A stretch of DNA of 43,088 nt from a virus, in the IMG/VR virus record IMGVR_UViG_3300045136_000164, positions 1 through 43,088 of that record; one strand, written 5' to 3'. Below the pieces are notes generated by a model. The model saw nothing but the letters and a program-made list of their open reading frames with translations. It was not told where the DNA came from and searched no databases. Both the position numbers and the translations under genes were made by a program. How positions within the stretch are numbered: the stretch's first letter is position 1; each line of letters opens with the position of its first letter. Shown here in pieces: positions 3,840 through 43,025 of the stretch.

Positions 3840-3910
3840 TCCCCTATCGTCTATCGGCAAGACTCCGGGCTTTGGACCCGGGAAAGGTGGTTCGAATCCA
3901 TCTAGGGGAA
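3840..3910 (+). tRNA. tRNA-Gln (anticodon TTG)
   Basis: A full cloverleaf can be drawn by eye: acceptor TCCCCTA 3840-3846 with TAGGGGA 3903-3909; D stem GTCT 3849-3852 with AGAC 3860-3863; anticodon stem CCGGG 3865-3869 with CCCGG 3877-3881 and loop CTTTGGA, anticodon TTG at 3872-3874; variable loop GAAA; T stem GGTGG/CCATC around TTCGAAT. The weak T-A first pair is typical of bacterial tRNA-Gln. The discriminator A is base 3910, CCA is not encoded, and 3910 is also the A of the ATG at 3910-3912. It reads CAA, a codon used unusually often in this GC-rich genome. Confidence 0.93.
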
Positions 3911-5232
3911 TGACCGTGTCCGACCGCGTGGCGCCCCGCCGGCGCGCGCCCGGCCGCCGGCGCCGGCCCAAGACGGTCGAGTGGCAACGGCCGTACTACT
4001 ACCCGGCTCAGTCCGCCTTTCTGCTGGACCCGGCCCGGTTCGTCATGGTCGAGGCGTCCACGAAGACGGGGAAAACGTCCGGCTGCATTGCGGCCCAGAC
4101 GGAGGACGTCCTGTTTCTGGGGGCCGCCGGCCGGTCGTTCTGGTGGGTGGCGCCGGTCTATGGGCAAGCCGAAATCGCCTATAACCGATTGCGCCACATG
4201 GCCACGCCGGGCCTGTTCCGGTTCAATGACTCCAAGCTGAAGGCGACCTGTGCGGTCAACGGGGCCGACTGGTTCTTCCGGTCGGCGGAGAAGCCGGACA
4301 ACCTGTATGGAGACGACGTCTGGGGGGTGACCGTGGACGAAGCCTCCCGCGTCCGGGAAGCGTCATGGACGGCCCTGTATTCGACCCTGACCGCCACCGG
4401 GGGGCGCGCGCGCATCATCGGGAACGTGAAGGGGCGCCGGAACTGGTTCTACAAGCTCGCCCGGCGCGCGCAAGCCGGCGAACCTGACCACGCCTACCAC
4501 AAACTGACGGCGTGGGACGCGGTCGCCGGCGGCATCATTGAGCGGTCCGTGGTCGAGGCCGCCCAACGGGACTTGGCCCCGGACGTCTTCGCGGAACTCT
4601 ACTTGGCCGAAGCGTCGGCCGCCGGCGCCAACCCCTTCGGGACCGACGTGGTCGCGCGCCTCTGCCGGCTGGCCCCGCCGGGCCCGGACGGTCGCGTCCC
4701 GGGGACGGACACCCCGGTCGTCTTCGGCGTGGACTTGGGCAAGGTGACCGACTCGACCGTGGTCACGGGGTTGGACACGGCTGGCCGGACGGCGTACTGG
4801 GAGCGGTTCCGGCTCCCGTGGACGGAAACGGTCGTCCGGCTGGTGGACATTCTCCAACGGTTCCCGGGGGCGTTCGCCCTGACGGACGGGACCGGCGCCG
4901 GCGACGCCCCGTCCGAGTTCGTGTCCCGGAAGCCGGGGCTGGCCGGCCGGGTCGAGTCCTTCCAGTTCACGGGCCGGAGTCACCAACAGATTTACGAAGG
5001 ACTGGCGCTCGACATGGGGTCCGGGTCGCTCCCGGCCCTGACCCGGGGCGTCGGGGACTGCCTGTTCGAAGAACTGGATAACTTCACCTTCGAACATCGG
5101 CGGACCGGCGTTCACTACACGGCCCCGGAGGGGATGCATGACGACGCGGTGGCGTCGCTCGCCCTCGCGGCGGAGGCCCGCCGGCGGGCCCGGCTCCGCC
5201 CCTCTGGTCTTTCGGCGCTGGTCGCCTTGTAG
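3910..5232 (+). CDS. terL: Terminase large subunit (440 aa)
   Basis: This is the ATPase-nuclease motor that fills the prohead with DNA. Walker A is ASTKTGKT (residues 49-56) and Walker B is VTVDEAS with D143-E144. The C-terminal RNase H-fold nuclease shows FGVDLGK with D275, then DGTGAGD with D326, and HDDAVASLALA with D411/D412, the expected metal-binding acidic set. ATG 3910 begins on the last base of the tRNA; GTG at 3916 is an equally good start and sits about 8 bases after AGGGGA, itself the 3' acceptor arm of the tRNA. Length is normal for a compact large terminase. Confidence 0.95.
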   Translation: MTVSDRVAPRRRAPGRRRRPKTVEWQRPYYYPAQSAFLLDPARFVMVEASTKTGKTSGCIAAQTEDVLFLGAAGRSFWWVAPVYGQAEIAYNRLRHMATPGLFRFNDSKLKATCAVNGADWFFRSAEKPDNLYGDDVWGVTVDEASRVREASWTALYSTLTATGGRARIIGNVKGRRNWFYKLARRAQAGEPDHAYHKLTAWDAVAGGIIERSVVEAAQRDLAPDVFAELYLAEASAAGANPFGTDVVARLCRLAPPGPDGRVPGTDTPVVFGVDLGKVTDSTVVTGLDTAGRTAYWERFRLPWTETVVRLVDILQRFPGAFALTDGTGAGDAPSEFVSRKPGLAGRVESFQFTGRSHQQIYEGLALDMGSGSLPALTRGVGDCLFEELDNFTFEHRRTGVHYTAPEGMHDDAVASLALAAEARRRARLRPSGLSALVAL

Positions 5233-5280: not shown

Positions 5281-6972
5281 ATGACCGCACCCCCGATTGT
5301 GCTTTCCGGTTCCTCCGGGCAAGGGCTGGGACCGGCCCGGCCCGGCGCCGGCGAACCGACCCCGACCGGGACGTGGCTGGACTACGTCCACCCGGACGTC
5401 AAGCGGTACGCGACCCGGTGGCGCTACGTCTGGGACCTCTACACGGGGGAGTGTGTGGACCCGGGCAACGTGCCGAACTATCTGGTCCGGCGTGCGACCG
5501 GGGAACACGCCGATTCCTACGGCGAGCGGTGCCGGATGGCCGACTACACGAATCACCTGTCGGCGCTGGTGGATTCGCTGTCGGGGATGCTGGCGGCGGT
5601 CGAACGGTCGGCGGTCCGGAAGTGGATGGGGGCGGAGGGCGAGCCCGCCGGCGTGCTGGGGGACCCGAAGGTCCCCGGGACCCTCGCGGAGCGACTGACC
5701 CGGAACGCCTCCGGCGACGGCGACGGGTGGGCGACCATCTGGCGCCGGGTGTCGCCCATGCTGTTCCTCTTGCGGCGGTCGTGGGTCCTGACGGACACGG
5801 CCGCCCCCGGCGTGCCCATGGTCCGGCTCCTGTCGCCGTGGGCGGTCCGGAACTGGATGGAGGACGACAAGACGGGGGTTCTGACGGAGGCCCTACTGGT
5901 CGAGGACGCGGACGCGCGCGCGTCGCTCCACGACGAACCCGACGGCGGCCGGACCTACCTGTATCTTCGGGTCGAGGGGTGGCAACGCCTCCGGCCGGTG
6001 AAGGACTCCGCCGTCGAGGTGGTCGAGGAAGGCCCGTGGTCGTACGTGACCCGCGACGGGACCCCGACCATTCCCTTGTCGTTCGGGTCGCTCCCGATTG
6101 CCCGGGACGTGGGCTACGTGATGGCCCGGAAGTGCAACGCCATCTTCAACAAGGAATCCGAGCGGGACCATCTGTTGCGCTATGGCAACTCCCCCCGGTT
6201 CATGCTGGACGCCCCCGACGAAACGCAATTCAACAAGCTAGTGGACTCGCTGGTCAAGGGGTCGTCCGTGCTTCAGGGCGTGACCCACAAGTGGGTGGCG
6301 CCCGACGTCGGGCCGGCGGAAGTCGCCTCCAAGGTGCTGGAACGGAAGGTCGAGGAGTTCTACCGGACCGGGTTCCGCGAATACGCGGACTCCGCTGCCC
6401 AGAAGACGGCGACCGAAGTCCGTCAGGACGTGGCCGCCGGGCTGGGGGCGGTCCTGTCGCTGGCCCGGACGGCGCTGGATGACTTGGAAAACGACGTCCT
6501 CTGGTTCTTGGAGCAAACGGTGGCGCCGGCGAACCGGGCGAACTGGGGCGTGGCGCACGTCATCCGGTCCGACGACTTCGCGGCCCCGAACCCCGACGAA
6601 GCGGCCGACAAGCTGGTGGCGTCCGCCTTCGGGACGGCCGACGGGGTTCCGATGGGGGCGACGGCCCGGGTCGCGGCCGCCCGCCGCTACGCGGACGCCC
6701 ATGGGCTCGCCTTTGACGAATCGGAGGCGACGGCCGCCGTGCGCGCGGCCATGGTGTCGTCGGCGCTGGCCGCGAACCCGGTCCTGACCATGCCGGCGAC
6801 GGTCCGGGCGGACTACGCCGTGGACGTGGCTATCGCGGCCGGCTACGTCAAATCCGAAGACGTCGCGGGGGTCGCGGCCCTGAAGGCGGAGGCGCTGGCG
6901 CTCGCCCGGGTCGCGGACGAATCGGCCCGCCGGGCCACGGAGGGGTTCCCGGGGCCCAGCCTGACCGGCTGA
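5281..6972 (+). CDS. Portal protein (563 aa)
   Basis: Position directly after large terminase, length, and the sequence support a portal: an N-terminal helical region (YVHPDVKRYATRWRYVWD) resembling DUF4055/SPP1-gp6-like portals, a wing-type mixed region, the stretch YGNSPRFMLDAPDE, and KTATEVRQDVAAGLG followed by a long helix (about residues 375-400), where portals carry their clip/stem. Twelve copies would form the ring through which DNA enters and on which the neck assembles. ATG 5281 lacks an obvious ribosome site. The next gene starts one base after the stop. Confidence 0.85.
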   Translation: MTAPPIVLSGSSGQGLGPARPGAGEPTPTGTWLDYVHPDVKRYATRWRYVWDLYTGECVDPGNVPNYLVRRATGEHADSYGERCRMADYTNHLSALVDSLSGMLAAVERSAVRKWMGAEGEPAGVLGDPKVPGTLAERLTRNASGDGDGWATIWRRVSPMLFLLRRSWVLTDTAAPGVPMVRLLSPWAVRNWMEDDKTGVLTEALLVEDADARASLHDEPDGGRTYLYLRVEGWQRLRPVKDSAVEVVEEGPWSYVTRDGTPTIPLSFGSLPIARDVGYVMARKCNAIFNKESERDHLLRYGNSPRFMLDAPDETQFNKLVDSLVKGSSVLQGVTHKWVAPDVGPAEVASKVLERKVEEFYRTGFREYADSAAQKTATEVRQDVAAGLGAVLSLARTALDDLENDVLWFLEQTVAPANRANWGVAHVIRSDDFAAPNPDEAADKLVASAFGTADGVPMGATARVAAARRYADAHGLAFDESEATAAVRAAMVSSALAANPVLTMPATVRADYAVDVAIAAGYVKSEDVAGVAALKAEALALARVADESARRATEGFPGPSLTG

Positions 6973-6973
6973 C

Positions 6974-9481
6974 GTGGCGCCCCGGCCGAACTACCGCACG
7001 GTCCAAGAGTCGGCCCGGGCGCGCGTCGAAACGCTGGCGACCCGGGCGGCGGCGGAGATTGCCGCCGACTTGCGCCGCATGGCCGACCAACTGGCCGGCC
7101 GGCTGTCGGCGCTCCCCGGGGGCGCGGCCGGCCAACGGGCGGCGCTGGAAGCGTCCCGCCGCATCGTCGCGGCGTCGGCGGCGGACTTCGAACGCCGGGT
7201 GGCGGCGGCCACGGCCCGGGCCCGGGACCTGTCCTTTCAGGAAGTCCGGGACGTCTGGCTGGCCGCCCAACGCGCGGCCGTCCAAGCGGCCGGCATCCCC
7301 GGGGAGGCGTTGCCGGCGTGGCTGGATGGCGTCGGGGCGGTCGAGGGCGCCACGTTCGGCCGCGCGCTGGTCCCCCGGGTGACCATGGCGGCGGCGTACG
7401 CCCGCCTGTCGCCGGCCGCGACGTGGCAAACGGCCCTGAAGGGCCACACGGCGAACGCGGCGGCGGACTTGGACCGCATCGTCCGGGAGGGGATTCTGGG
7501 GGGCGCCGACCCCTTCGAACTCGCGCGCCGGCTCCGGCCCTACGTCCAAGGGGCGGAGTCGTTCGAACGCGCCTTCCCGAAGACGGACGACCGGTTCGCC
7601 CGGCTCCACGACTTGCGCGGCGTCCCGGCCGACCTGAAGGGCGCGGCCCGCCGGCTGAACTACAACGCCACCCGGATAGCCGTCACGGAGACGTGGAACG
7701 CCCGGGCGGAGGCCGAACTGGAAGCGTTCGCCGTGGACCCCATGGTGTACGCGGTGAAGTGGACGCTGGCCCCGAACCGGGGCGCCCTCCGGAAGCCGGA
7801 CGTGTGCGACGCCTACGCCGGGACCGACTGGTACGGGCTGGGGGTCGGCGTCTTCCCGCTGGACGCGGTCCCGCTCCCGCCCCACCCCTTCGACCGTTGC
7901 ACCCGCGTCCCGCTGCTCCGGTCCCCGAACGACTGGCGGAAGCCGAAGCCGGCCGGGCTCGCCCGGAAGCGCCAAGTCACAGACGCCGGCGGGTTGGCGT
8001 CGCCGTACCTGCTGCCCGAGCAACGCCTGTCCCCGGTGGACGTGGACGCCGTGAAAGCGGCCCTGACGCGCGGGTTCCGCCCCGGGAAGGTGGCGGACCC
8101 GGCGCGCGTGGCCATGTCGAAGCTGGTCACGGCCGGCGACGCGGCGGCGGTCGAACTCGCGGACGTCCTCGCGGGGGTCGAACTGCCGGTCCTCCCGGAC
8201 CCGGGCCCCATCGTGGACCCGGAACCGATTGTCCCGCCCCCGCCCCCGCCGGACCCGGTCGTGGTCGCGCCCACGCCGGCGCTCCCGCCCCCGGTGCCGG
8301 AACCGCCGGCGCTCCCCACGGACCCGCTGGACCGGGCGCTGGCGGAGGCGGCCGCCGTGCGCGCGAAGCTGGCCGAGTTCAAGGCGTTGACCGTGGAGGA
8401 GGCACTGGCCCTGCCGTCGGGCCCGCGCGGCCGGTCCCTCCGCGACAAGTTCGAATCCATCCGGACCCGGCTGGTCGAGGGCGAACGGGCCATCATGGCG
8501 GACCCCCGGTTCGCGGCCCGGGACGAACTGTGGACCAAGATGTTCCGGGCGGAGGCGGACACGTCCCAAGCGTTCGCCTACTGGAACCGGCTGGACCATC
8601 AAGTCGGGGACGCCAAGCGGGCCATTGCCCAGTACGGCCACGCCCACGGCCTGACCACGGAGGAAGTGGAGCTACTGAAGCGTCAGGCGGCGGAGGCGCT
8701 GGCGGAGTATCAAGAACTGTCCCGGTTCTCGACCCGGCTCCGCGCGGAATACACGGCGCTGGACCGGGCCCTAGAACCCCTCATTACGAAGGTGGACGCC
8801 CTCCGGGAGCGGCTCCGGAAGGTCGGGGCCGCCGGGACCGCCCGGGCCAAGGCGCTGGCGGAGGCCAGCCGGGCCAAGGGCCGCGCGCTGGTCGAACGGC
8901 CGGCGGCGGAGTGGGGGACGCTCGCCCCCGAGTTTTGGGCCGCGAAGGGCGGTCCGGCCGGGAGGGTGGACCCCCGGTTCGCGGCCAAGGCGGCCGAAGG
9001 GTTCGCGGCCTTTAACCGGATGGTCGGCAAGGTGGGCCACTCGCCGGTTCAACGGGTCATCCGGAAAGCCGGCCGCGCGAACGCCTCCGTCTTCGAAGGC
9101 GCCAACGGCCCGATTAACATGGCCCTGACCGACGGGGTCGGCGTCTGGGCCCACGAATTGTCCCACTTCTGGGAGTTCAACGAACCCGAAGTTTGGAAGG
9201 CGTCCCAGCGATTCCACGCGCGCCGGACCGCCGGCGAAAAGCTCCAAAAAATCTACCCCGGGTCCAAGGGCAAGATGGGGCGGGAAGTCGCCCGGTTCGA
9301 CAAGTACCGGAGCCCCTACGCCGGCAAGGAATACACGTTCAACAATGCGAACCGTGGGACTAACGAAATCGTGGCGATGGGCGTGCAATGGATGGTCGAG
9401 GACGCGGCCGCGTTCGCCCGGGAGGACCCGGACTATTTCGACTTCATCTTCGCCCTAATCCGCACCCGGACCGGCAAGTAG
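6974..9481 (+). CDS. MuF-type head morphogenesis protein fused to a zinc-metalloprotease-like domain (835 aa)
   Basis: Residues about 200-315 carry the MuF signature (TRIAVTETWNARAEAE; AVKWTLAPN from residue 260; VCDAYAG with C278; PPHPFDRCTRVPLL). A Pro-rich linker (about 405-453) separates a second half: a helical region (about 455-660) and a C-terminal domain with HELSH (H727, E728, H731), then GTNEIVAMG (E798, possible third ligand) and DPDYFDFIFALI. HExxH is the zincin motif. MuF proteins sit next to the portal and some are known to carry C-terminal effector domains injected with DNA; use of this one as a virion-delivered protease is inference. The start is GTG 6974; no better start exists near it. 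Confidence 0.85.
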   Translation: MAPRPNYRTVQESARARVETLATRAAAEIAADLRRMADQLAGRLSALPGGAAGQRAALEASRRIVAASAADFERRVAAATARARDLSFQEVRDVWLAAQRAAVQAAGIPGEALPAWLDGVGAVEGATFGRALVPRVTMAAAYARLSPAATWQTALKGHTANAAADLDRIVREGILGGADPFELARRLRPYVQGAESFERAFPKTDDRFARLHDLRGVPADLKGAARRLNYNATRIAVTETWNARAEAELEAFAVDPMVYAVKWTLAPNRGALRKPDVCDAYAGTDWYGLGVGVFPLDAVPLPPHPFDRCTRVPLLRSPNDWRKPKPAGLARKRQVTDAGGLASPYLLPEQRLSPVDVDAVKAALTRGFRPGKVADPARVAMSKLVTAGDAAAVELADVLAGVELPVLPDPGPIVDPEPIVPPPPPPDPVVVAPTPALPPPVPEPPALPTDPLDRALAEAAAVRAKLAEFKALTVEEALALPSGPRGRSLRDKFESIRTRLVEGERAIMADPRFAARDELWTKMFRAEADTSQAFAYWNRLDHQVGDAKRAIAQYGHAHGLTTEEVELLKRQAAEALAEYQELSRFSTRLRAEYTALDRALEPLITKVDALRERLRKVGAAGTARAKALAEASRAKGRALVERPAAEWGTLAPEFWAAKGGPAGRVDPRFAAKAAEGFAAFNRMVGKVGHSPVQRVIRKAGRANASVFEGANGPINMALTDGVGVWAHELSHFWEFNEPEVWKASQRFHARRTAGEKLQKIYPGSKGKMGREVARFDKYRSPYAGKEYTFNNANRGTNEIVAMGVQWMVEDAAAFAREDPDYFDFIFALIRTRTGK
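8797..8865 (+). repeat. 69-bp segment with a perfect inverted copy at 40833-40901
   Basis: Bases 8797-8865 (within the MuF-protease gene, coding LRERLRKVGAAGTARAKALA) are identical, as reverse complement, to 40833-40901. The match stops sharply at both ends. See the partner entry. Confidence 0.95.
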
Positions 9482-9970: not shown

Positions 9971-10207
9971 ATGGCCGCGGCGGTGCGGGACGGGTTCCTT
10001 CGGTGGGTGCGGACGGCGCGGAGCGTGGCGGAGTGTCGCCACGCCCGCGCGCTCGCCGTCTCCGAGCCCGCCCTGTCGCCGGCCGACGTGGCGGCGGTCG
10101 AGGCGGCCGCCCTCGCGCGCGCCGGCGCCGTCCTGACGGAGACGGCCCGCCTCCGCCGGGCCCGGGAGGCGAACGCCCAGCCCGACTTCTGGACGCCGGC
10201 GGAATAG
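9971..10207 (+). CDS. Hypothetical 78-aa protein
   Basis: ATG 9971 follows the previous stop by 13 bases, with GGGGGTGG just upstream as a possible ribosome site. The protein is Ala/Arg-rich and nearly all helical (GFLRWVRTARSVAECRHAR), with a single Cys. It probably shares the transcript from 9509. No function recognised. Confidence 0.65.
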   Translation: MAAAVRDGFLRWVRTARSVAECRHARALAVSEPALSPADVAAVEAAALARAGAVLTETARLRRAREANAQPDFWTPAE

Positions 10208-10220
10208 TTGCGGGCCCCCC

Positions 10221-10249
10221 TTGCGCGCAACCGGTGGGCGTGGTAGTAT
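10221..10249 (+). promoter_or_regulatory. Promoter with palindromic -35 (TTGCGCGCAA), spacer 17, TAGTAT
   Basis: TTGCGC 10221-10226 lies in the perfect 10-bp palindrome TTGCGCGCAA (10221-10230); TAGTAT is at 10244-10249. The bases TTGCGGGCCCCCC before it (10208-10220) also occur before the promoter at 40932. It drives the winged-helix gene at 10299. Confidence 0.85.
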
Positions 10250-10301
10250 TCCTCTGTGGCCGGCGTGGTGCCGGCCCGCAACCCTGAGGAACCGCCCCAT
10301 G
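10243..10301 (+). repeat. 59-bp leader block, copy 1 (exact copy at 10605-10663)
   Basis: From the base before the -10 box to the ATG, 10243-10301 is identical to 10605-10663. It contains the -10 box, a 5' hairpin, the AACCCTGAGG ribosome leader and the start codon. Shorter, diverged copies precede the genes at 41009 and 42711. Confidence 0.92.
10258..10276 (+). ncRNA. 5'-terminal mRNA hairpin (7-bp stem, 5-base loop), copy 1
   Basis: GGCCGGC 10258-10264, loop GTGGT, GCCGGCC 10270-10276. The transcript should start at about 10256, so the hairpin forms its extreme 5' end. A stable 5'-terminal stem is known to protect bacterial mRNAs from decay; that role here is inferred. Confidence 0.7.
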
Positions 10302-10553: not shown

Positions 10554-10569
10554 GTCACCCGCCCCCACG

Positions 10570-10611
10570 TTGCGCGCTCCCCTTGCGCGCAATCTGGGGG
10601 CGGGGTAGTAT
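10570..10611 (+). promoter_or_regulatory. Promoter with two TTGCGCGC boxes; TTGCGC-17-TAGTAT
   Basis: The functional pair is TTGCGC 10583-10588 (within palindrome TTGCGCGCAA 10583-10592) and TAGTAT 10606-10611, spacer 17. A second TTGCGCGC begins 13 bp upstream at 10570, giving tandem boxes that could bind two regulator dimers on one face of the helix. It drives the gene at 10661. Confidence 0.82.
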
Positions 10612-10663
10612 TCCTCTGTGGCCGGCGTGGTGCCGGCCCGCAACCCTGAGGAACCGCCCCATG
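10605..10663 (+). repeat. 59-bp leader block, copy 2
   Basis: Exact copy of 10243-10301, 362 bp downstream. The two genes that follow the copies are unrelated, so only the regulatory cassette was duplicated or shuffled. Confidence 0.92.
10620..10638 (+). ncRNA. 5'-terminal mRNA hairpin, copy 2
   Basis: GGCCGGC 10620-10626, loop GTGGT, GCCGGCC 10632-10638, placed two bases after the expected transcription start (about 10618). Confidence 0.7.
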
Positions 10664-29448: not shown

Positions 29449-30801
29449 ATGGCGTTCAACGGCGCCGTGTCGTGGCAGACGGCGGGCGCCGGTAATGGGC
29501 CCTCCACTACGGGCCTGACGGCGCTGGACCTGACCGGCTCCTGTACGTGGGCGTGGTGGTATCGCGGGACGAAGCAAATTGACGTGGTCGTCCATTCGGA
29601 CAACACGAATGGATACCTTATCCGGATGCGGCCGGCGCTGGGGGACTTCCAGCTTCGCTTGACGGCCGCGTCAGTCAGCACGTCGTACGGCCCGCCCGCC
29701 GGGCCCCGGCCGGTCGCGCCGAACCAGTGGCGGCACTACGCCATCGTGTACGACGCGACGGCGGCCGTCATCCTGTTCTACGTGGACGGCCGCCACTTGG
29801 CGACGGTGGCCCGGACGGGTGGCGCTCCCGCGACCCCGACGGCCGCGACCACGCGCATCCTGAACGACGCCGGCACCCCGACGGCCGGGACCGTCGGCCG
29901 GATGTTCGACCTTCAGGTCTTCAACGGGCTGGCGCTGGGTCAGGCGGAAATCTGGCGCCTTATCGACCCGACCCGGACGAACTGGACGGCCACGGCCCGC
30001 TTTGCCCGGTCGTGGGCGAACCCGGGCGTCTCCGGGACCATCCGGGACGAATCCCTGAACGGCTGGGGCCTGACGGCGACCGCCAACCCGGGCGGGTACG
30101 ACGTGTGCGAGTCGCCCGACTGGACCCGCGTGGCCGGCCGGTTCACGTCGCGGCGCGGCGGCATCGGCGCCCCGGCCGCCGGGGCGCCCATCGTGGCCAC
30201 CGGGGCCGCCGGCGCGGCGGGCGTGGCGGTCCTGTCGGTCCGGCGTCGGGCGACCGCCACCGGGGCGGCCTCCGCCGCCGGGACGGCGACGCTCCAAGTC
30301 CGCCGCTCCCTGTTCGGCGTGGGGTCCGCGTCGGCGGTCGGCACGGCCAGTCTCCGCGTCCTCCGGTCCCTGTTCGCCACCGGGGCGGCCTCCGCCGCCG
30401 GGACGGCGACGCTCCGGGCCGGCAATCCCATGACGGCCACTGGGGCGGGCTCCGCCGCCGGCACGGCCAGTCTCCGCGTCCTCCGGTCGCTGGCGGCCGC
30501 CTCCGCCGCGTCCGCCGCCGGCACGGCCAGTCTCCGCGTCGTGCGGGCCCTCGCGGCCGCCGGCGCGGCCTCCGCCGTGGGAACGGCCGTCGCGGCGGTC
30601 CGCCGGCGCCTGACGGCCACCGGGGCGGGCTCCGCCGCCGGCACGGCGACCTTCTCCGCCACGTATCTTCCCGCGAACCTGTCGGCGGACCTGTCGGTCC
30701 TCCCGGCCCTGTCGGCCGACCCGGAGACGACGCTGGCGCTGGGGGGTGGACTGGACGACCCCCAACCGGCCTTGTCGGCCGCGCCCATCATCTTCCAGTA
30801 G
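29449..30801 (+). CDS. Lectin-like (LamG/ConA) receptor-binding protein with eight 20-aa repeats (450 aa)
   Basis: ATG 29449. Residues about 1-190 look like a LamG/concanavalin-type jelly roll: SCTWAWWYRGTKQIDVVV, then WRHYAIVYDATAAVILFYVD and GRMFDLQVFNGLALGQAEIW. From residue 250, eight 20-residue repeats of the type ATGAASAAGTATLxVRRSL follow (30196-30675), then a Ser/Ala/Leu tail. Lectin domain plus regular repeats suggests a sugar-binding head on an elongated stalk; repeat fold is unknown. It would bind the host surface. Confidence 0.78.
   Translation: MAFNGAVSWQTAGAGNGPSTTGLTALDLTGSCTWAWWYRGTKQIDVVVHSDNTNGYLIRMRPALGDFQLRLTAASVSTSYGPPAGPRPVAPNQWRHYAIVYDATAAVILFYVDGRHLATVARTGGAPATPTAATTRILNDAGTPTAGTVGRMFDLQVFNGLALGQAEIWRLIDPTRTNWTATARFARSWANPGVSGTIRDESLNGWGLTATANPGGYDVCESPDWTRVAGRFTSRRGGIGAPAAGAPIVATGAAGAAGVAVLSVRRRATATGAASAAGTATLQVRRSLFGVGSASAVGTASLRVLRSLFATGAASAAGTATLRAGNPMTATGAGSAAGTASLRVLRSLAAASAASAAGTASLRVVRALAAAGAASAVGTAVAAVRRRLTATGAGSAAGTATFSATYLPANLSADLSVLPALSADPETTLALGGGLDDPQPALSAAPIIFQ
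30196..30675 (+). repeat. Eight in-frame 60-bp repeats (20 residues each)
   Basis: Units start at 30196 and every 60 bp; the core ACCGGGGCGGCCTCCGCC and GGCACGGCCAGTCTCCGCGT stretches recur with some identical copies. The conserved protein core is (A/G)xGSAxGTAxL. Near-identical adjacent units suggest recent expansion or homogenisation. Confidence 0.9.
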
Positions 30802-31403: not shown

Positions 31404-32477
31404 ATGGCACACAAACCCGACCGCAACACGGAAACCGGCACCGCCACTGTCTCCTCCGTCCTTCAGGATATGTGGCACCGCGAAGGTCACGTCATTTCGG
31501 ACGCGCCGTCGCGCGAGGCCGCCCAGAAGCGCGCCGGCCACGACTTCACGGTGAAGCTCTACCCGATGGCCGTGGAACTCCCGACCGACGACGGCGCGGG
31601 CACCTTCACCCGCCGCGTGGACGGGTCGTTCGCCACGGTTCGCACGGACCGGAACACGGTGCTGGGGGTCGTCGGCCCGGACTACCAGCCCCTTCAGAAC
31701 GACGACGCCTTCGCCGTGCTGGACCCGATGCTGGACGCCGGCCTGTTGACCCTGACCACGGCCGGGACGTTCCGGGGCGGCCGGGACGTCTGGATGCAAG
31801 GCGAGTTTGTGGCGGAGAAGCTGGGCCCCAAGGCGTCGGCGTTCTTCACGTCGGAGGGGATTCGCCCCTACGTGCTGGTGTTGAACAACCACGCCGGCCG
31901 CCGCGCGGCCACGGTCCACTTCACCCCGGTCCGGGTCGTGTGCGCGAACACGCTCCGCGCGGCGCTGGCCCACTTCGGGACCGCCCTGAAGACGGGCAAC
32001 GCGGCCCGCGTCCGCCACACGAAGAACGTGGCCGCGAATCTGGCCGGCGCCACGGCCGGGCTGGTGGCCGCCAGGGGGCTGGCCGACGGGTTCGAAACGG
32101 TCGCGGCGGACTTCCTGACGCTCCGGAACTTCACCCTGAGCCCGGACCAGTTCCGGAAGCTGGTGCTGGACGTGGTCGCACCGGACCCGCGCGACTCCGC
32201 GAAGTTCAACGCCAAGTCCCGGAAGGCCGATTCGTCGGTGGCCCGCGCCGCCGCGCGCCGCACGGAATTGACCCGCCTGTGGACCGACGGCGCTGGCCAC
32301 ACGGGCGACCTGTCCGCGTGGGAGGCGTGGAACGGCGTGGTGGAGGCGCTGGACCACGACGCGGCCGGCCTCTGGCCGACGCGCGGGGAAGACGGCCGCA
32401 TCGCCTCCGAGTTCGGCGGCGCCATCGGGACCGCCAAGACGGACAGCCTTCGCGCCCTGCTGGCGGCCGCGCGCTAG
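31404..32477 (+). CDS. DUF932 / phage-plasmid-like protein (357 aa)
   Basis: ATG 31404 follows AATCCTGAGG (31386-31395) by 8 bases. The motifs LGVVGPDYQPLQNDDAFAVL, VLNNHAGRRAATVHFTPVRV and VCANTLRAAL are the hallmarks of the DUF932 (TIGR03299) family found in phages and plasmids. The biochemical role of the family is not established; it is often near early or defence/regulatory genes and may be abundant. Here it is the first early gene. Confidence 0.88.
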   Translation: MAHKPDRNTETGTATVSSVLQDMWHREGHVISDAPSREAAQKRAGHDFTVKLYPMAVELPTDDGAGTFTRRVDGSFATVRTDRNTVLGVVGPDYQPLQNDDAFAVLDPMLDAGLLTLTTAGTFRGGRDVWMQGEFVAEKLGPKASAFFTSEGIRPYVLVLNNHAGRRAATVHFTPVRVVCANTLRAALAHFGTALKTGNAARVRHTKNVAANLAGATAGLVAARGLADGFETVAADFLTLRNFTLSPDQFRKLVLDVVAPDPRDSAKFNAKSRKADSSVARAAARRTELTRLWTDGAGHTGDLSAWEAWNGVVEALDHDAAGLWPTRGEDGRIASEFGGAIGTAKTDSLRALLAAAR

Positions 32478-32541
32478 GCTCGCCCGCTCCCGCTCCGCCG
32501 ACGCCCCGGGTTCACGCCCGGGGCGTCTGGCGTTTGGGGGA

Positions 32542-32570
32542 TTGCGCGCACGGCCGCGCGCCGATAGGAT
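32542..32570 (+). promoter_or_regulatory. Promoter, TTGCGC-17-TAGGAT
   Basis: TTGCGC 32542-32547 (TTGCGCGCAC), TAGGAT 32565-32570, spacer 17, upstream of the HTH gene at 32598. Confidence 0.78.
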
Positions 32571-32597
32571 GGGCCATACCCTTTCCACGGAACCCCT

Positions 32598-32897
32598 ATG
32601 CCCGCCCGCCGCACCCGTCGCCGTTCCCGTCCCGCCGCGTCCCTTGCCGACACGCCGGCGCCCACCGGTATCCTCTCCCGGCTGGCCATGGAAACGGGCC
32701 GGTCGGAGTCGCACCTGTCCCGGGTCATCCGGGGCGAGCGGGTGTCCAAGGCCCTGACGGCCGAAATTGAGACGGCCGCCGGCCGGCCCATTGCCGAAAT
32801 CCGGGAGCAACTGGCCCGCGACGGCGTGGACCGGGCCGTGGCGTCCGCCCAACGGGCCGGCGTGAACGTCTCCGTGGCCGTCACGCCCGCGCCGTAG
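32598..32897 (+). CDS. HTH regulator, Cro/repressor-like (99 aa)
   Basis: ATG 32598. A basic N-terminal tail (ARRTRRRSR) precedes a helix-turn-helix of the lambda-repressor type: ILSRLAMETGRSESHLSRVI, then RGERVSKALTAEIETAAG. A C-terminal helix and strand (ASAQRAGVNVSVAV) may dimerise it. It is a good candidate for binding the TGCGCGCA operators, including the one in its own promoter. No cleavage (LexA-like) domain, so if the phage is temperate this alone is not proof. Confidence 0.78.
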   Translation: MPARRTRRRSRPAASLADTPAPTGILSRLAMETGRSESHLSRVIRGERVSKALTAEIETAAGRPIAEIREQLARDGVDRAVASAQRAGVNVSVAVTPAP

Positions 32898-32909
32898 AAC
32901 GCCCCGCGC

Positions 32910-32926
32910 GGGGCCGGAATGGCCCC
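32910..32926 (+). terminator. Hairpin after the HTH gene
   Basis: GGGGCC 32910-32915, loop GGAAT, GGCCCC 32921-32926, 12 bases after the HTH stop. No T-run. The alternative CCCCGCGCGGGG (32902-32913) overlaps it. Could separate the HTH transcript from the next gene. Confidence 0.45.
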
Positions 32927-32964
32927 GTGGCGGCCCGAACGCCCCCAACCCTGAGGATTCACCC

Positions 32965-33552
32965 GTGAAGCTCTACGAACTGGCCGCCGACGCGGCCGTA
33001 CTGGACCGCTGGCTGGACGAACACGCCGACGCTATCGCGGCGGCCGATGGCGAAGTCCCGCCGGAACTCGCGGCCCTGCTCGACCAGTCCGACGCGGCCA
33101 TGGCGGCCAAGGTCGCCGGCATTGTCCGGGTGATTCGGAATCACGACGCGGCCGCCGTCGCGGCCAAGGCGGAGGCCGCGCGCCTGTCGGCCGTCGCCAA
33201 GGCCCGGGCCGGGACGGTCGAGTCCCTGAAGCGGTATCTGGCCACGTCGCTGGGTATCGCCGGGATGCCCAAGGTCGTGACCGACGTCGGGACCGTGTCG
33301 GTCCAGAACAACCCGCCCGCCGTGGCGTTCACGGTGCCGGCGTCGCCGGCGCCGGACTTCCCGCTGGCGGAGTTCGTCGTGGAGACGGCGCCGGCGCGCG
33401 GCCCGGAATACGGGTTCGACCGGGCCCGGGCGCTGGCCGCGTGGAAGGCGGCCCACGCGGAGCCGGACCCGGACGTCCGGGAGGCGACACTGGCGACCCT
33501 CCGCGCGGCGGGGCTGGTCGTGACCGTGGGGACGTCGGTCCGGATTCGGTAG
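32965..33552 (+). CDS. Siphovirus Gp157-like protein (195 aa)
   Basis: GTG 32965 follows AACCCTGAGG (32947-32956) by 8 bases. LYELAADAAVLDRWLDEHAD at the start, a long helical hairpin (AAMAAKVAGIVRVIRNHDAA to RAGTVESLKRYLATSL) and a strand pair near VVTDVGTVSVQNNPPAV match the Gp157 family. Family members are linked to early phage functions and phage resistance in streptococci. Often next to SSB/recombination genes, as here. Confidence 0.82.
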   Translation: MKLYELAADAAVLDRWLDEHADAIAAADGEVPPELAALLDQSDAAMAAKVAGIVRVIRNHDAAAVAAKAEAARLSAVAKARAGTVESLKRYLATSLGIAGMPKVVTDVGTVSVQNNPPAVAFTVPASPAPDFPLAEFVVETAPARGPEYGFDRARALAAWKAAHAEPDPDVREATLATLRAAGLVVTVGTSVRIR

Positions 33553-33586: not shown

Positions 33587-33600
33587 CGGGCTGTTGCCCG
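33587..33600 (+). terminator. Small hairpin before the SSB promoter
   Basis: CGGGC 33587-33591, loop TGTT, GCCCG 33596-33600. Weak, in the 128-base gap after the Gp157-like gene. Confidence 0.3.
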
Positions 33601-33606
33601 CCCCCC

Positions 33607-33635
33607 TTGCGCGCAACGGTGCGGCCTTGTAGGCT
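33607..33635 (+). promoter_or_regulatory. Promoter, palindromic -35, TTGCGC-17-TAGGCT
   Basis: TTGCGC 33607-33612 in TTGCGCGCAA (33607-33616), TAGGCT 33630-33635, spacer 17. Drives the SSB-like gene; start about 33642. Confidence 0.83.
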
Positions 33636-33642
33636 TGGGCAT

Positions 33643-33661
33643 GGTCGGCATGGGGCCGACC
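33643..33661 (+). ncRNA. 5'-terminal mRNA hairpin, compensatory variant
   Basis: GGTCGGC 33643-33649, loop ATGGG, GCCGACC 33655-33661. Same 7-bp stem and 5-base loop as the element at 10258, but the third pair is T-A instead of C-G on the two arms, so pairing is conserved while sequence changes. Confidence 0.7.
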
Positions 33662-33680
33662 CCTTCCCGGAGTGTGGACG

Positions 33681-34457
33681 ATGGCTCGCACGTTTCCCCC
33701 GAAAGTCTCCCTTGCGATTGACGGCCCCGCCGTCGTCATGCGCGTGACGCGCGTGGACCGCTGGTCGGCCAAGCATGGCCCCAGCGTCACGGTCGAAGGG
33801 ATGCAACGCGACCGGACGATTGTCGCCGTGACCATGGACGAACCGACATGGGACCGTCAGGTGTCGCGCCCGGCCGTGAACCTGACCGACGCGACCGTGG
33901 TCGGCGTCGTGGTGTCCATCTACCGGATTGCCGGCGGCGGCAAGAATGGGTACGTGAACGTGGACCTTGGCATCCGGGGCGACGGCACGCCGTTCCCGGG
34001 CGGCCTCCCTCTCGCGGCGTACGACGCCACGGCGCCGGCCGCGAAGGCGGCCACGCCCGCCCCGGCCCCCACGAAGGCGTCCGCCGGCGCCGCCCGGCCG
34101 TCGGTCGAGGACGCGGCCGCGAAGTGGGCGGACGTCGTGGCCCGGGCGCGCGCGTGCTACGCGGCGTCCCTGAGCATCATGGGCGACGCGGACCCGCGCG
34201 CCACGGCCGCCTTCGCCTCCACCCTGTTTATCAACACGGACCGCGACGCGGTCGGCCAGTCGGGCGCCGTGGCCGCCGGGAAGGCACTGGGGGACCGTCC
34301 TCTGGCGCCGGCTCCCGCTCCGGTCGCGGCGGTCGAACCGCCGCCGGTCCGGACGTTCCCGCCGATGCGCGCGGCGTCCCCGGCGCGGCCGGGTGACGAG
34401 TTCGAAGACTTCCCGCCGGCGGGCCCGGAGGAAGGGGACGACGACCTTCCGTTCTAG
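33681..34457 (+). CDS. Single-stranded DNA-binding protein-like (258 aa)
   Basis: ATG 33681; an upstream in-frame GTG at 33672 is less likely. N-terminal 115 residues are strand-rich and OB-like (VVMRVTRVDRWSAKHGPSVT; ATVVGVVVSIYRIAGGGKNG). A Pro/Ala linker, a helical region and then an acidic tail ending EEGDDDLPF: the DDDxPF-type tip is the hallmark by which SSBs recruit partner proteins. Longer than E. coli SSB because of the inserted helical part. Acts in phage replication/recombination. Confidence 0.8.
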   Translation: MARTFPPKVSLAIDGPAVVMRVTRVDRWSAKHGPSVTVEGMQRDRTIVAVTMDEPTWDRQVSRPAVNLTDATVVGVVVSIYRIAGGGKNGYVNVDLGIRGDGTPFPGGLPLAAYDATAPAAKAATPAPAPTKASAGAARPSVEDAAAKWADVVARARACYAASLSIMGDADPRATAAFASTLFINTDRDAVGQSGAVAAGKALGDRPLAPAPAPVAAVEPPPVRTFPPMRAASPARPGDEFEDFPPAGPEEGDDDLPF

Positions 34458-34995: not shown

Positions 34996-35415
34996 ATGCC
35001 CAAGTTCGCCCCTGACGACGTCGAAGCGGCCGCGCGCCGGTCGCGCGTCTTCGTCCCGGAACCCGGCTCCCTGTTCGACCTTCCCCCGGGCCCGCCGGCC
35101 CCGGTGGACCGCCCGCCCCTCCCGACCGTGGCCGCCGGCGTGAAAGCCGCGACCGCCGGGAACGCCAACGTCGTGGCCGCGTGCCGGGACGCCATGGTCG
35201 CCAAGTCGAAGGCGGCCGCCGTGCGCGGCGTGAACGGCGAAGTCTCCGGCGACGACGCAACGCTTTGGATTCGCGCCCACGCGCCCCAGTTGGACCCCCG
35301 GGTGCTGGGGGGCGTCTTCCGGTCCGCCGGCTGGGAGTTCGTGCGGTGGGGCCAGTCGGCCCTCCCGGGCCGCCATGCGCGCGGCCTCCGCGTCTGGCGC
35401 TGGGCGGGCCGGTAG
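34996..35415 (+). CDS. Hypothetical 139-aa protein
   Basis: ATG 34996. Pro-rich N-terminal part, central Ala-rich helix (NVVAACRDAMVAKSKAAAV), and a C-terminal winged-helix-looking segment (ATLWIRAHAPQLDPRVLGGV, then FRSAGWEFVRWGQS and GLRVWRWAGR) as seen in phage early DNA-binding proteins. First of the replication genes, ending directly before the next ATG. Confidence 0.7.
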   Translation: MPKFAPDDVEAAARRSRVFVPEPGSLFDLPPGPPAPVDRPPLPTVAAGVKAATAGNANVVAACRDAMVAKSKAAAVRGVNGEVSGDDATLWIRAHAPQLDPRVLGGVFRSAGWEFVRWGQSALPGRHARGLRVWRWAGR

Positions 35416-39660: not shown

Positions 39661-40324
39661 CTATCGCGTCGTCCCCCTGACGACCCATTTCCCCGTGTGG
39701 CCGGGCGGGGCGCCGACGCCGGCCGCCATGCGGGTTGGCTCGCCGTTCCGGTCGAACTGGGGGCGAACCCTGAACCTGCTGGGCGCCGAGTTGCGGCGCT
39801 GGCACGGCGCGGCCGCGACGCTCGCCGTGGACGTGGCGCCGGGGATGATTCGTCAGGACGGCGGCTTGCGGGCGGACGCGCGCATCGTGAACCCGGCCGT
39901 GGTGTGGAGCTTCACGGTGGGCGCCGACCGGCTGGACTTCGGCTCCGACGCCTACCGGCACTGGCAAGACAACGTCCACGCGGTCGCGCTGTCGCTGGAA
40001 GCCCTCCGCGCGGTGGACCGCTACGGCGTGGCCAAGGGCCGGCAATACGTGGGGTTCCGGTCGCTCCCGGCCGGCCATCCGGAGCCCCCGGCCGCCGCCG
40101 GGGCGCCCCGGCCCACGGTGGCGTACTGGTGGGCGGAGCTTCGGGCGCTGGCGAACCTGCCCACGGAGCGGTTCGGTGCGGTGCCGGAGACGGCGGAGGC
40201 CGTCATGGACGCCGTCCGTCGCGCCCGGAGCCTCTGCCACCCGGACCGCCACGAAGGAAGTGTCCGGCAGTTCCAACGGGTCGAGGCGTTGCGGGACGCC
40301 CTCGCGGGAGCGGGGTTCCGATGA
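39647..40324 (+). CDS. J-domain-containing protein (225 aa)
   Basis: ATG 39647 overlaps the previous gene by 14 bases. The first 150 residues are a unique strand/helix domain (LNLLGAELRRWHGAAATLAV; NPAVVWSFTVGADRLDFGSD). The C-terminal 65 residues look like a DnaJ J-domain: helix II VMDAVRRARSLC, the invariant HPD (H198-P199-D200), then helix III SVRQFQRVEALRDALA. J-domains stimulate Hsp70 ATPase; this protein may recruit host DnaK to a phage client. Function inferred. Confidence 0.75.
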   Translation: MPGPDYRVVPLTTHFPVWPGGAPTPAAMRVGSPFRSNWGRTLNLLGAELRRWHGAAATLAVDVAPGMIRQDGGLRADARIVNPAVVWSFTVGADRLDFGSDAYRHWQDNVHAVALSLEALRAVDRYGVAKGRQYVGFRSLPAGHPEPPAAAGAPRPTVAYWWAELRALANLPTERFGAVPETAEAVMDAVRRARSLCHPDRHEGSVRQFQRVEALRDALAGAGFR

Positions 40325-40947
40325 CCGCCCCCGACCTGACCCCGGAGGACGTCCCGCCGTTCGTCCCGGTGCCGGTGCCCGGGGCCCATGGGGCGCCCGT
40401 CATGGACGACCGCCAGTTGGACATTCTGGGCGTCCCCGGCGTGGCCCCGGCGCTCCCGCCGGCGCCGCCCGGGCTGTCTCGCTCCGAACTCGCGGACCGG
40501 GTACTGGTGCGCCTGTTCCGCCACGGGGAGGCGCCCCCGACCCGGAAGGAACTGAAGGACGCCTACCCGTTCGGGGACCGCAAGGGCTGGCCGTACAAGG
40601 CGTGGCTGTCGCGCGTCCAGTCGTGGCGGCAAGCCCACGGCGCCGGCTATATCGCCCCGGCCCCGAAGCGAAAGCGGCGGCCGCCCCGGAAGCCCCACCC
40701 GGACCTTCCGTTGCCGGGCCTGACGAACGCCGGCGCCCTCTTGCCGACGCCCCGGAAGCCCCACCCGGACCTTCCGTTGCCGGGCCTGACGAACGCCGGC
40801 GCCCTCTTGCCGACGCCCCGGAAGCCCCGGCCGCCTCCGCCAGCGCCTTGGCCCGGGCGGTCCCGGCGGCCCCGACCTTCCGGAGCCGCTCCCGGAGGGC
40901 GCCCCGCCGGCGGGGTAATTGCGGGCCCCCCTTGCGCGCAAGCGTAA
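40321..40947 (+). CDS. Protein with a helical domain and a rearranged, Pro-rich C-terminus (208 aa)
   Basis: ATG 40321 overlaps the previous stop (CGATGA). Residues about 48-110 form a conserved-looking domain (LSRSELADRVLVRLFRHGEA; YPFGDRKGWPYKAWLSRVQS; AHGAGYIAP). Two identical 22-residue repeats follow (RKPHPDLPLPGL...), then about 23 residues translated from the 69-bp inverted copy of the MuF gene, and an end that runs through the promoter at 40932 to TAA 40945-40947. The native C-terminus has probably been replaced. Unassigned. Confidence 0.68.
   Translation: MTAPDLTPEDVPPFVPVPVPGAHGAPVMDDRQLDILGVPGVAPALPPAPPGLSRSELADRVLVRLFRHGEAPPTRKELKDAYPFGDRKGWPYKAWLSRVQSWRQAHGAGYIAPAPKRKRRPPRKPHPDLPLPGLTNAGALLPTPRKPHPDLPLPGLTNAGALLPTPRKPRPPPPAPWPGRSRRPRPSGAAPGGRPAGGVIAGPPCAQA
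40684..40828 (+). repeat. 66-bp tandem duplication plus partial third copy
   Basis: Two complete 66-bp units (starting at 40684 and 40750) are followed by about 13 bp of a third. They are in frame and add 22 residues per copy. The partial third copy runs straight into the inverted 69-bp segment. Confidence 0.93.
40833..40901 (-). repeat. 69-bp inverted copy of part of the MuF-protease gene
   Basis: Perfect reverse complement of 8797-8865, about 32 kb away. Flanks differ at once on both sides (only CCGG is shared near one junction). It codes a new Pro/Arg-rich tail on the gene at 40321. Confidence 0.95.
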
Positions 40948-40960
40948 GGGGGGCTACTGT
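40932..40960 (+). promoter_or_regulatory. Promoter, palindromic -35, TTGCGC-17-TACTGT
   Basis: TTGCGC 40932-40937 in TTGCGCGCAA (40932-40941), TACTGT 40955-40960, spacer 17. TTGCGGGCCCCCC (40919-40931) upstream matches 10208-10220. Lies inside the 3' end of the gene at 40321. Confidence 0.8.
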
Positions 40961-40968
40961 TCTCCCGT

Positions 40969-40987
40969 GGCCGGCGTGGTGCCGGCC
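40969..40987 (+). ncRNA. 5'-terminal mRNA hairpin, copy 3
   Basis: GGCCGGC 40969-40975, loop GTGGT, GCCGGCC 40981-40987; expected start about 40967. AACCCTGAGG follows at 40991-41000. Confidence 0.7.
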
Positions 40988-41008
40988 CGGAACCCTGAGG
41001 CTCGACCG

Positions 41009-41392
41009 ATGCGCGCATTTACCGCCCCCGTTGACGAACTCCGCTGTATCGCCACGCGCTCCCCGCTGGCGGACGGCTCGCTGGCCCGCTGTATGCGCCG
41101 CCGCGCCGCAAACTCGCCCTACTGTTCGGCCCACGCCGACGGGGGGCCGGTGCTGGCGCCCCGCGCGCGCCGCTACGTCCTTCAGTACGACGGCCCGGAA
41201 GTGCGGTTCGATGACACCCGCGAGTACGTGGCCCGGTCGTGGAAGCCCGGGACGCCGATGGAACACACGGTCGTCAAGGCGGAGGCCCGGTACTTCCGCA
41301 CCTTCGCCAAGGCGGCCCAGTACGTCGCCAGCCGGCCGTTCACGGCGACGCGCTTCCCGTGGCGCTACTCCATCGTCGGGGTGACCCTGTGA
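41009..41392 (+). CDS. Protein with N-terminal Cys/His metal site (127 aa)
   Basis: ATG 41009, eight bases after AACCCTGAGG. Residues about 13-42 (RCIATRSPLADGSLARCMRR, then YCSAH) give a C-x(n)-C-x(n)-CxxH arrangement like a small zinc finger; the rest is strand/helix with basic and aromatic residues (RYVLQYDGPEVRFDDTREYV; YFRTFAKAAQYVASRPFTAT). Unknown function. Confidence 0.7.
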   Translation: MRAFTAPVDELRCIATRSPLADGSLARCMRRRAANSPYCSAHADGGPVLAPRARRYVLQYDGPEVRFDDTREYVARSWKPGTPMEHTVVKAEARYFRTFAKAAQYVASRPFTATRFPWRYSIVGVTL

Positions 41393-42428: not shown

Positions 42429-42621
42429 CGCCCTCCGCCCCAAGCCCGCCTTGCTCGCCAAGGTCGGGGCCATCGTCGTCCACGCGGACGAACTCCTGAG
42501 CCCCGGGGGCCACGCCTTCGACCGGGCCGCCCTTCGGTCCCTGCTGGACGACCCGGACGTGGGCCAGTGGCTTCAGGAAATGCGCCGGATGGCGCTGGTC
42601 CCCCGGAAGCGAACGGAGTAG
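42421..42621 (+). CDS. Hypothetical 66-aa protein
   Basis: ATG 42421 overlaps the previous stop by 8 bases. Helical (KPALLAKVGAIVVHADELLS; AALRSLLDDPDVGQWLQEMR) with a basic C-terminus. Unassigned. Confidence 0.66.
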   Translation: MPDALRPKPALLAKVGAIVVHADELLSPGGHAFDRAALRSLLDDPDVGQWLQEMRRMALVPRKRTE

Positions 42622-42634
42622 TGGCGCGCGCCCC

Positions 42635-42662
42635 TTGCGCGCAAGCGTGGGGGCGCTACTGT
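42635..42662 (+). promoter_or_regulatory. Promoter, palindromic -35, TTGCGC-16-TACTGT
   Basis: TTGCGC 42635-42640 in TTGCGCGCAA (42635-42644), TACTGT 42657-42662, spacer 16. Very similar to the promoter at 40932. Confidence 0.78.
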
Positions 42663-42670
42663 CCTGACGT

Positions 42671-42689
42671 GGCCGGCGTGGTGCCGGCC
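42671..42689 (+). ncRNA. 5'-terminal mRNA hairpin, copy 4
   Basis: GGCCGGC 42671-42677, loop GTGGT, GCCGGCC 42683-42689; expected start about 42669. AACCCTGAGG follows at 42693-42702. Confidence 0.7.
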
Positions 42690-42710
42690 CGCAACCCTGA
42701 GGCTCGCCCG

Positions 42711-43025
42711 ATGCGAACGACGACGACCGCCAACCAGAGAACGCCGGCCGCTATCCGCAACCGCGCCATGCGGTCGGCCGCCGCCCTCCGCGAGAACCGG
42801 ACCATCCCCGACCAGACGCCGGAGGAATGGGCGCTGGTGCTGGACGCGCTCCGCGCGGACGTGCGGCATTTCGTGGCCCACGCGCGCCGCATGGCCCGCC
42901 TGTCGCGGCTCGCGCGCCGCGTGAACTCGCCGGCGTCGGCCGGCCGGTACGCGGCCATGTCGCGCCGCTCCATCGGCGCCGCGCGCGCCGCGAAGCGGGC
43001 GCTGGAACGGGTGGGGGCGCTGTGA
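42711..43025 (+). CDS. Hypothetical basic helical protein (104 aa)
   Basis: ATG 42711, eight bases after AACCCTGAGG. Strongly basic and helical (AAIRNRAMRSAAALRENRTI; EEWALVLDALRADVRHFVAH; RMARLSRLARRVN). Net charge suggests nucleic-acid binding. Overlaps the next GTG. Confidence 0.68.
   Translation: MRTTTTANQRTPAAIRNRAMRSAAALRENRTIPDQTPEEWALVLDALRADVRHFVAHARRMARLSRLARRVNSPASAGRYAAMSRRSIGAARAAKRALERVGAL

Follow-up and report, generated by a model that had tools for sequence, protein, structure and literature searches.

An exact 69-nt inverted copy of a head-morphogenesis gene segment in a distant open reading frame of a tailed phage: a probable long-distance double template switch

Introduction

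Long-distance inverted double template switches have been described in E. coli, where they act over tens of kilobases with junction microhomology of 3–30 bp, and where a single inverted switch would give no viable product in the system used (PMC3161906). The embedded inverted duplications reported there measure 5–43 kb and were obtained on an F' plasmid under selection (PMC3161906). A four-point template-switch model has also been set out, for switches that are local (PMC7954356). Here we describe a locus in a tailed phage genome at which a short piece of a structural gene recurs in inverted orientation inside an unrelated open reading frame (ORF), weigh how it could have arisen, and compare it with these and other known systems.

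Results

The window analysed is the whole of IMG/VR virus record IMGVR_UViG_3300045136_000164 (43,088 bases, 73% GC), a complete contig of a tailed phage, a bacterial virus. No terminal repeat of at least 16 bp was found in the 43,088-nt contig, and circularity is treated as a candidate only. The head genes run from terminase (3910–5232) through portal (5281–6972) to the MuF gene that served as donor (Table 1), and a tRNA-Gln (TTG) gene at 3840–3910 ends where the terminase ORF starts (3910). The C-terminal domain of the MuF protein (8990–9478, HELSHFWEF, phrog_33618) is related to domains of other phage proteins, either head proteins or proteins of unknown function, and is possibly a cargo enzyme domain carried on a minor head protein. 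Elsewhere in the genome, a 60-nt tandem array at 30195–30660, of ~7–8 alanine/glycine-rich units, lies within ORF 29449–30801, and a DUF932/TIGR03299 protein adjoins a Mu Gam-like end-protection protein (31404–33552).

Table 1 Features of the donor gene, the recipient ORF and the junctions (positions in the window).
Feature	Position	Strand	Details
MuF/SPP1 gp7-type head-morphogenesis gene (donor gene)	6974–9481	+	835 aa; phrog_1657 E=1.3e-22; C-terminus phrog_33618 E=1.9e-21
Second MuF site	8335–8354	+	20 nt; antisense matches 40828–40847
Donor arm inside MuF coding sequence	8797–8865	+	exact reverse complement of 40833–40901
DnaJ-like phage protein	39647–40324	+	phrog_9210 E=7e-26; matches phage DnaJ-like chaperonins
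Recipient ORF	40321–40947	+	208 aa; coding-like to ~40828, then disturbed; stop inside cassette
In-frame tandem duplication	40682–40828	+	66-nt unit (22 aa), ~2.2 copies, ends at junction; 81-nt exact direct repeat at offset 66
Junction bases CGGCC before copy	40828–40832	+	with first 15 nt of copy, match antisense of 8335–8354 (20 nt)
Inverted 69-nt copy at 3' end of ORF 40321	40833–40901	−	69/69 identity
14-nt perfect palindrome CCCCGCCGGCGGGG directly after copy	40902–40915	.	one of 23 of at least 14 nt in the window
TAA adjoining cassette, frame 40322	40916–40918	+	probable ancestral stop, by cassette analogy with 10205–10207
Regulatory cassette before gene at 41009	40919–41008	+	one of five copies
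Hairpin at cassette start	40925–40955	+	13-bp stem, GCAA loop; DNA fold z = −3.4, RNA fold z = −3.7

The first-pass annotation had reported an exact inverted duplication with abrupt ends, and both parts of that description hold: the two arms agree without a single mismatch, and on either side of the match the neighbouring bases disagree. The longest extension that a repeat search gives is an 81-nt block at 94%, and the 69-nt arm occurs in two places in the whole contig, with no third. The distance of ~32 kb between the arms given earlier is true along the contig, and would be ~11 kb the other way round if the genome is circular. Statistically, the number of 69-nt inverted matches expected by chance is ~1e-27, the longest inverted match in 60 codon-block shuffles was 16–21 bp, and the runner-up in the real window measures 20 bp; a chance origin is thus excluded. 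The perfect identity also supports the earlier view that the duplication is recent, since a perfect copy implies an event that is seen only while recent, and on this sequence evidence we infer recency.

To place the repeat in context, exact inverted repeats whose arms are separated by over 1 kb were compared across 155 loci (1.64 Mb) from relatives and controls, a set whose pair space amounts to ~12 windows, and the longest found there is 27 nt. The corresponding maximum for 14 near-complete contigs of related viruses (669 kb) is 23 nt. Three of four isolate phages have repeats of 20 nt at most, and the fourth, Halorubrum phage Hardycor1, has repeats of 83, 42 and 41 nt. In Hardycor1, each of the 83-nt arms (7402–7484 and 35316–35398) immediately precedes a start codon and resembles a regulatory cassette, with a leader or promoter common to the two; long dispersed inverted repeats thus do occur in phages. 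Close relatives of the present phage were found neither in viral contigs (queried with MuF, the recipient ORF, the DnaJ-like protein, capsid and terminase), nor in genome contigs (MuF and terminase), nor in phage records (MuF, terminase, the recipient ORF, the DnaJ-like protein and the junction DNA). Only distant relatives were retrieved, with terminase identity of at most 50% and capsid identity of at most 36%, none of them useful at this locus, the collections searched possibly omitting records very near the window.

Compositionally, the direction of copying is clear, and it runs from the MuF gene to the recipient ORF. In the MuF frame, the GC fractions of the donor arm at codon positions 1/2/3 are 0.87/0.65/1.00, which is coding-like, and with 0.74/0.53/0.91 for the MuF gene as a whole, the arm is typical of the genome. 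In the frame of ORF 40321, the copy gives 0.87/1.00/0.65, which is not coding-like, and the normal pattern upstream (~0.75/0.58/0.96) breaks at about 40810–40828. Because composition is normal at the donor and broken at the recipient, the sequence moved from the former to the latter. The foreign-looking stretch begins at ~40828, the end of the tandem repeat, slightly before the 69-nt match itself.

The recipient ORF overlaps the stop of the DnaJ-like gene with its own start by ATGA, and family searches assigned it to no known family. Its stop now lies at 40945–40947, inside the regulatory cassette that follows. At another copy of this cassette, the gene upstream ends at the matching place (TAG, 10205–10207), and by analogy the TAA that adjoins the cassette beside the copy is probably the ancestral stop of the upstream gene. 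Since the two stops sit at the same place in sister cassettes, the event probably shifted the frame of the recipient's last codons, away from the stop at 40916–40918. The C-terminus of the recipient had been described as replaced by the copy; that it is disturbed is borne out by codon-position GC that is abnormal after ~40828, and the change at the 3' end may be read as either an insertion or a replacement, the old tail being merely extended or truly replaced.

The copy had also been said to run up to a promoter. The phage carries five copies of the cassette that lies there, all on the + strand (10206–10300, 10568–10662, 33592–33685, 40917–41011 and 42620–42714), with a shared layout of CCCTTGCGCGCAA, a possible −10 (TAGTAT/TACTGT) 13 nt on, a CCGGC...GCCGG hairpin leader and a start codon. 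What stands, then, is a five-copy phage cassette with a plausible −35/−10 pair, but a sigma-70 scan gave no site at the cassette beside the copy. The 40.9-kb cassette copy alone was noted with the extra 13-bp-stem hairpin. When two cassette patterns were scanned in contigs, one gave no match and the other matched one unrelated contig.

At the junctions, the bases flanking the match differ, so that any microhomology would be hidden inside the copy, and what can be seen is limited to imperfect similarity and alternative MuF matches. On the left, the tandem duplication occupies the same C-terminal tail as the inverted copy and adjoins it, and the CGGCC that follows could possibly be part of a second MuF-derived patch; the probability of that 20-nt match arising by chance, evaluated post hoc, is 0.0004–0.05 depending on what is held fixed. 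On the right, a 15-nt stretch made of the last 10 bases of the copy and the 5 that follow also occurs in MuF antisense at ~7778–7792. A three-patch mosaic of MuF antisense, likewise devised post hoc, has a simulated probability of ~1e-3 (arm fixed) to ~1e-4 (flanks fixed), and the alternative MuF matches at both ends hint at repeated switches within MuF, which they would fit. A palindrome as long as the one directly after the copy is no rarity in a genome so rich in GC (the window has 23 of at least 14 nt). Taken together, tandem repeat, palindrome and hairpin would form a setting suited to fork stalling.

Discussion

The best explanation of this locus, and in our judgement probably the true one, is a recent MMBIR/FoSTeS-like event in which the template was switched twice, in inverted orientation and over a long distance, in keeping with the template switching during replication that the first-pass annotation had put forward. 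As a template switch predicts, the donor has been retained (MuF is intact) and the insert is its reverse complement (69/69), and codon-position composition gives a donor-to-recipient direction. Mechanistically, we posit that during phage replication a nascent strand ending near 40828–40832 would have left its own template and been extended along the opposite strand of the MuF gene, from ~8865 towards 8797, and that after ~69 nt had been copied it would have returned to the original template at 40902, just upstream of the cassette. The switch would likely have been triggered where the fork stalled, close to the tandem repeat and the palindrome or hairpin. Two inverted switches would be needed, since one alone would give a non-viable rearranged genome. 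The product would be a short inverted insert in the dispensable C-terminal tail of a small accessory protein, with the frame probably shifted at the end of that protein, and such an insert is probably tolerated and neutral. Both the replicative mechanism and the fork stalling are read from the arrangement of the sequence, and should be taken as a proposal.

The rival that survives best, though we consider it unlikely, is an artefact of assembly or amplification, either a chimeric molecule (from multiple displacement amplification, for example) or a wrong path through the assembly graph. The contig does come from a metagenomic virus collection (IMG/VR), no second genome has the feature, and related contigs contain no dispersed inverted repeat longer than 27 bp. 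However, both junctions lie within 69 nt and could be spanned by a single ordinary read, and a repeat-driven misjoin swaps flanks and makes no new copy, although a chimeric template could make one. Moreover, both flanks are this phage's own, with the recipient ORF on the left and the five-copy cassette on the right, and gene order is otherwise coherent. Because the junctions are only 69 nt apart and both flanks belong to the phage, the assembly error raised at first pass is less likely than had been implied.

Next in order, and improbable in our view, is annealing-based recombination, in which a single-stranded MuF fragment would have been paired in by a Red/RecT-like protein via short GC-rich matches. 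The Mu Gam-like end-protection protein that the phage encodes (phrog_253 E=9.8e-17) speaks for this route, as does the efficiency with which lambda Red recombines diverged sequences (PMC2327257), but the matches shared at the borders are only 10–20 nt, and none of the scanned proteins was recognised as an annealing protein. The structure predicted for the DUF932/TIGR03299 protein, a candidate for that role, was too poor to use (mean pLDDT 32.7). Annealing would also lead to the same outcome as template switching, so the sequence hardly separates the two.

A selected antisense function is very improbable. Under it, the transcript of an operon of the DnaJ-like gene and ORF 40321 would repress MuF mRNA early in infection, via a 69-nt duplex and cleavage by RNase III. 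Donor and recipient genes share the + strand, which makes their transcripts complementary, and the computed duplex energy is −187 kcal/mol versus −34 and −39 for the lone arms. Yet the copy lies within coding sequence and disturbs the ORF, there is no evidence of conservation and no known system of such design, and the perfect identity is equally expected from recency. We give just as little credence to the related idea that a switch accident might have made a trans-acting 69-nt antisense to MuF mRNA, and with it a new early-to-late RNA link.

Least credible of all are the readings of the pair as arms of an invertible segment flipping 32 kb or as DGR-like template and variable repeats, since for all the perfect inverted arms and the position of the copy at a gene 3' end, like a DGR variable repeat, the arms sit inside two unrelated genes that a flip would disrupt; the former was rejected because no tyrosine (PF00589) or serine (PF00239) recombinase is encoded in the contig (controls positive, a host enzyme being possible), and the latter because the contig has no reverse transcriptase (PF00078; controls positive) and the copies, being identical, show no adenine-specific differences.

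If real, the double template switch proposed here would be a cleanly preserved case of inverted template switching over a long distance in a phage, and such events can make, in one step, new protein tails from coding sequence together with complementary RNA. Set beside known systems, the locus is unusual but belongs to a known class of mutation, and reveals no new system. With diversity-generating retroelements it shares a copied block at a gene 3' end, but it differs in having no reverse transcriptase or adenine mutagenesis, in its inverted orientation, and in a template that lies in a structural gene. Like Hardycor1, with its arms of 83 bp, it has long exact inverted repeats in a phage genome; whereas the Hardycor1 arms precede start codons, both arms here lie within coding sequence, which is the oddity of this case, and only one of them is native. 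The four-point events of PMC7954356 resemble it in the exact reverse-complement insert, the switch out and back, and the secondary structure nearby, and differ in being local, at one replication fork, whereas donor and recipient here are 32 kb apart in the contig. From E. coli MMBIR (PMC3161906), with its inserts of 5–43 kb on a selected F' plasmid, it differs in the size of the insert (69 bp), in the phage setting and in having no known ancestor, and the event that we propose would share with it two inverted switches, an inverted segment bounded by two new junctions, a retained donor and possibly short junction matches.
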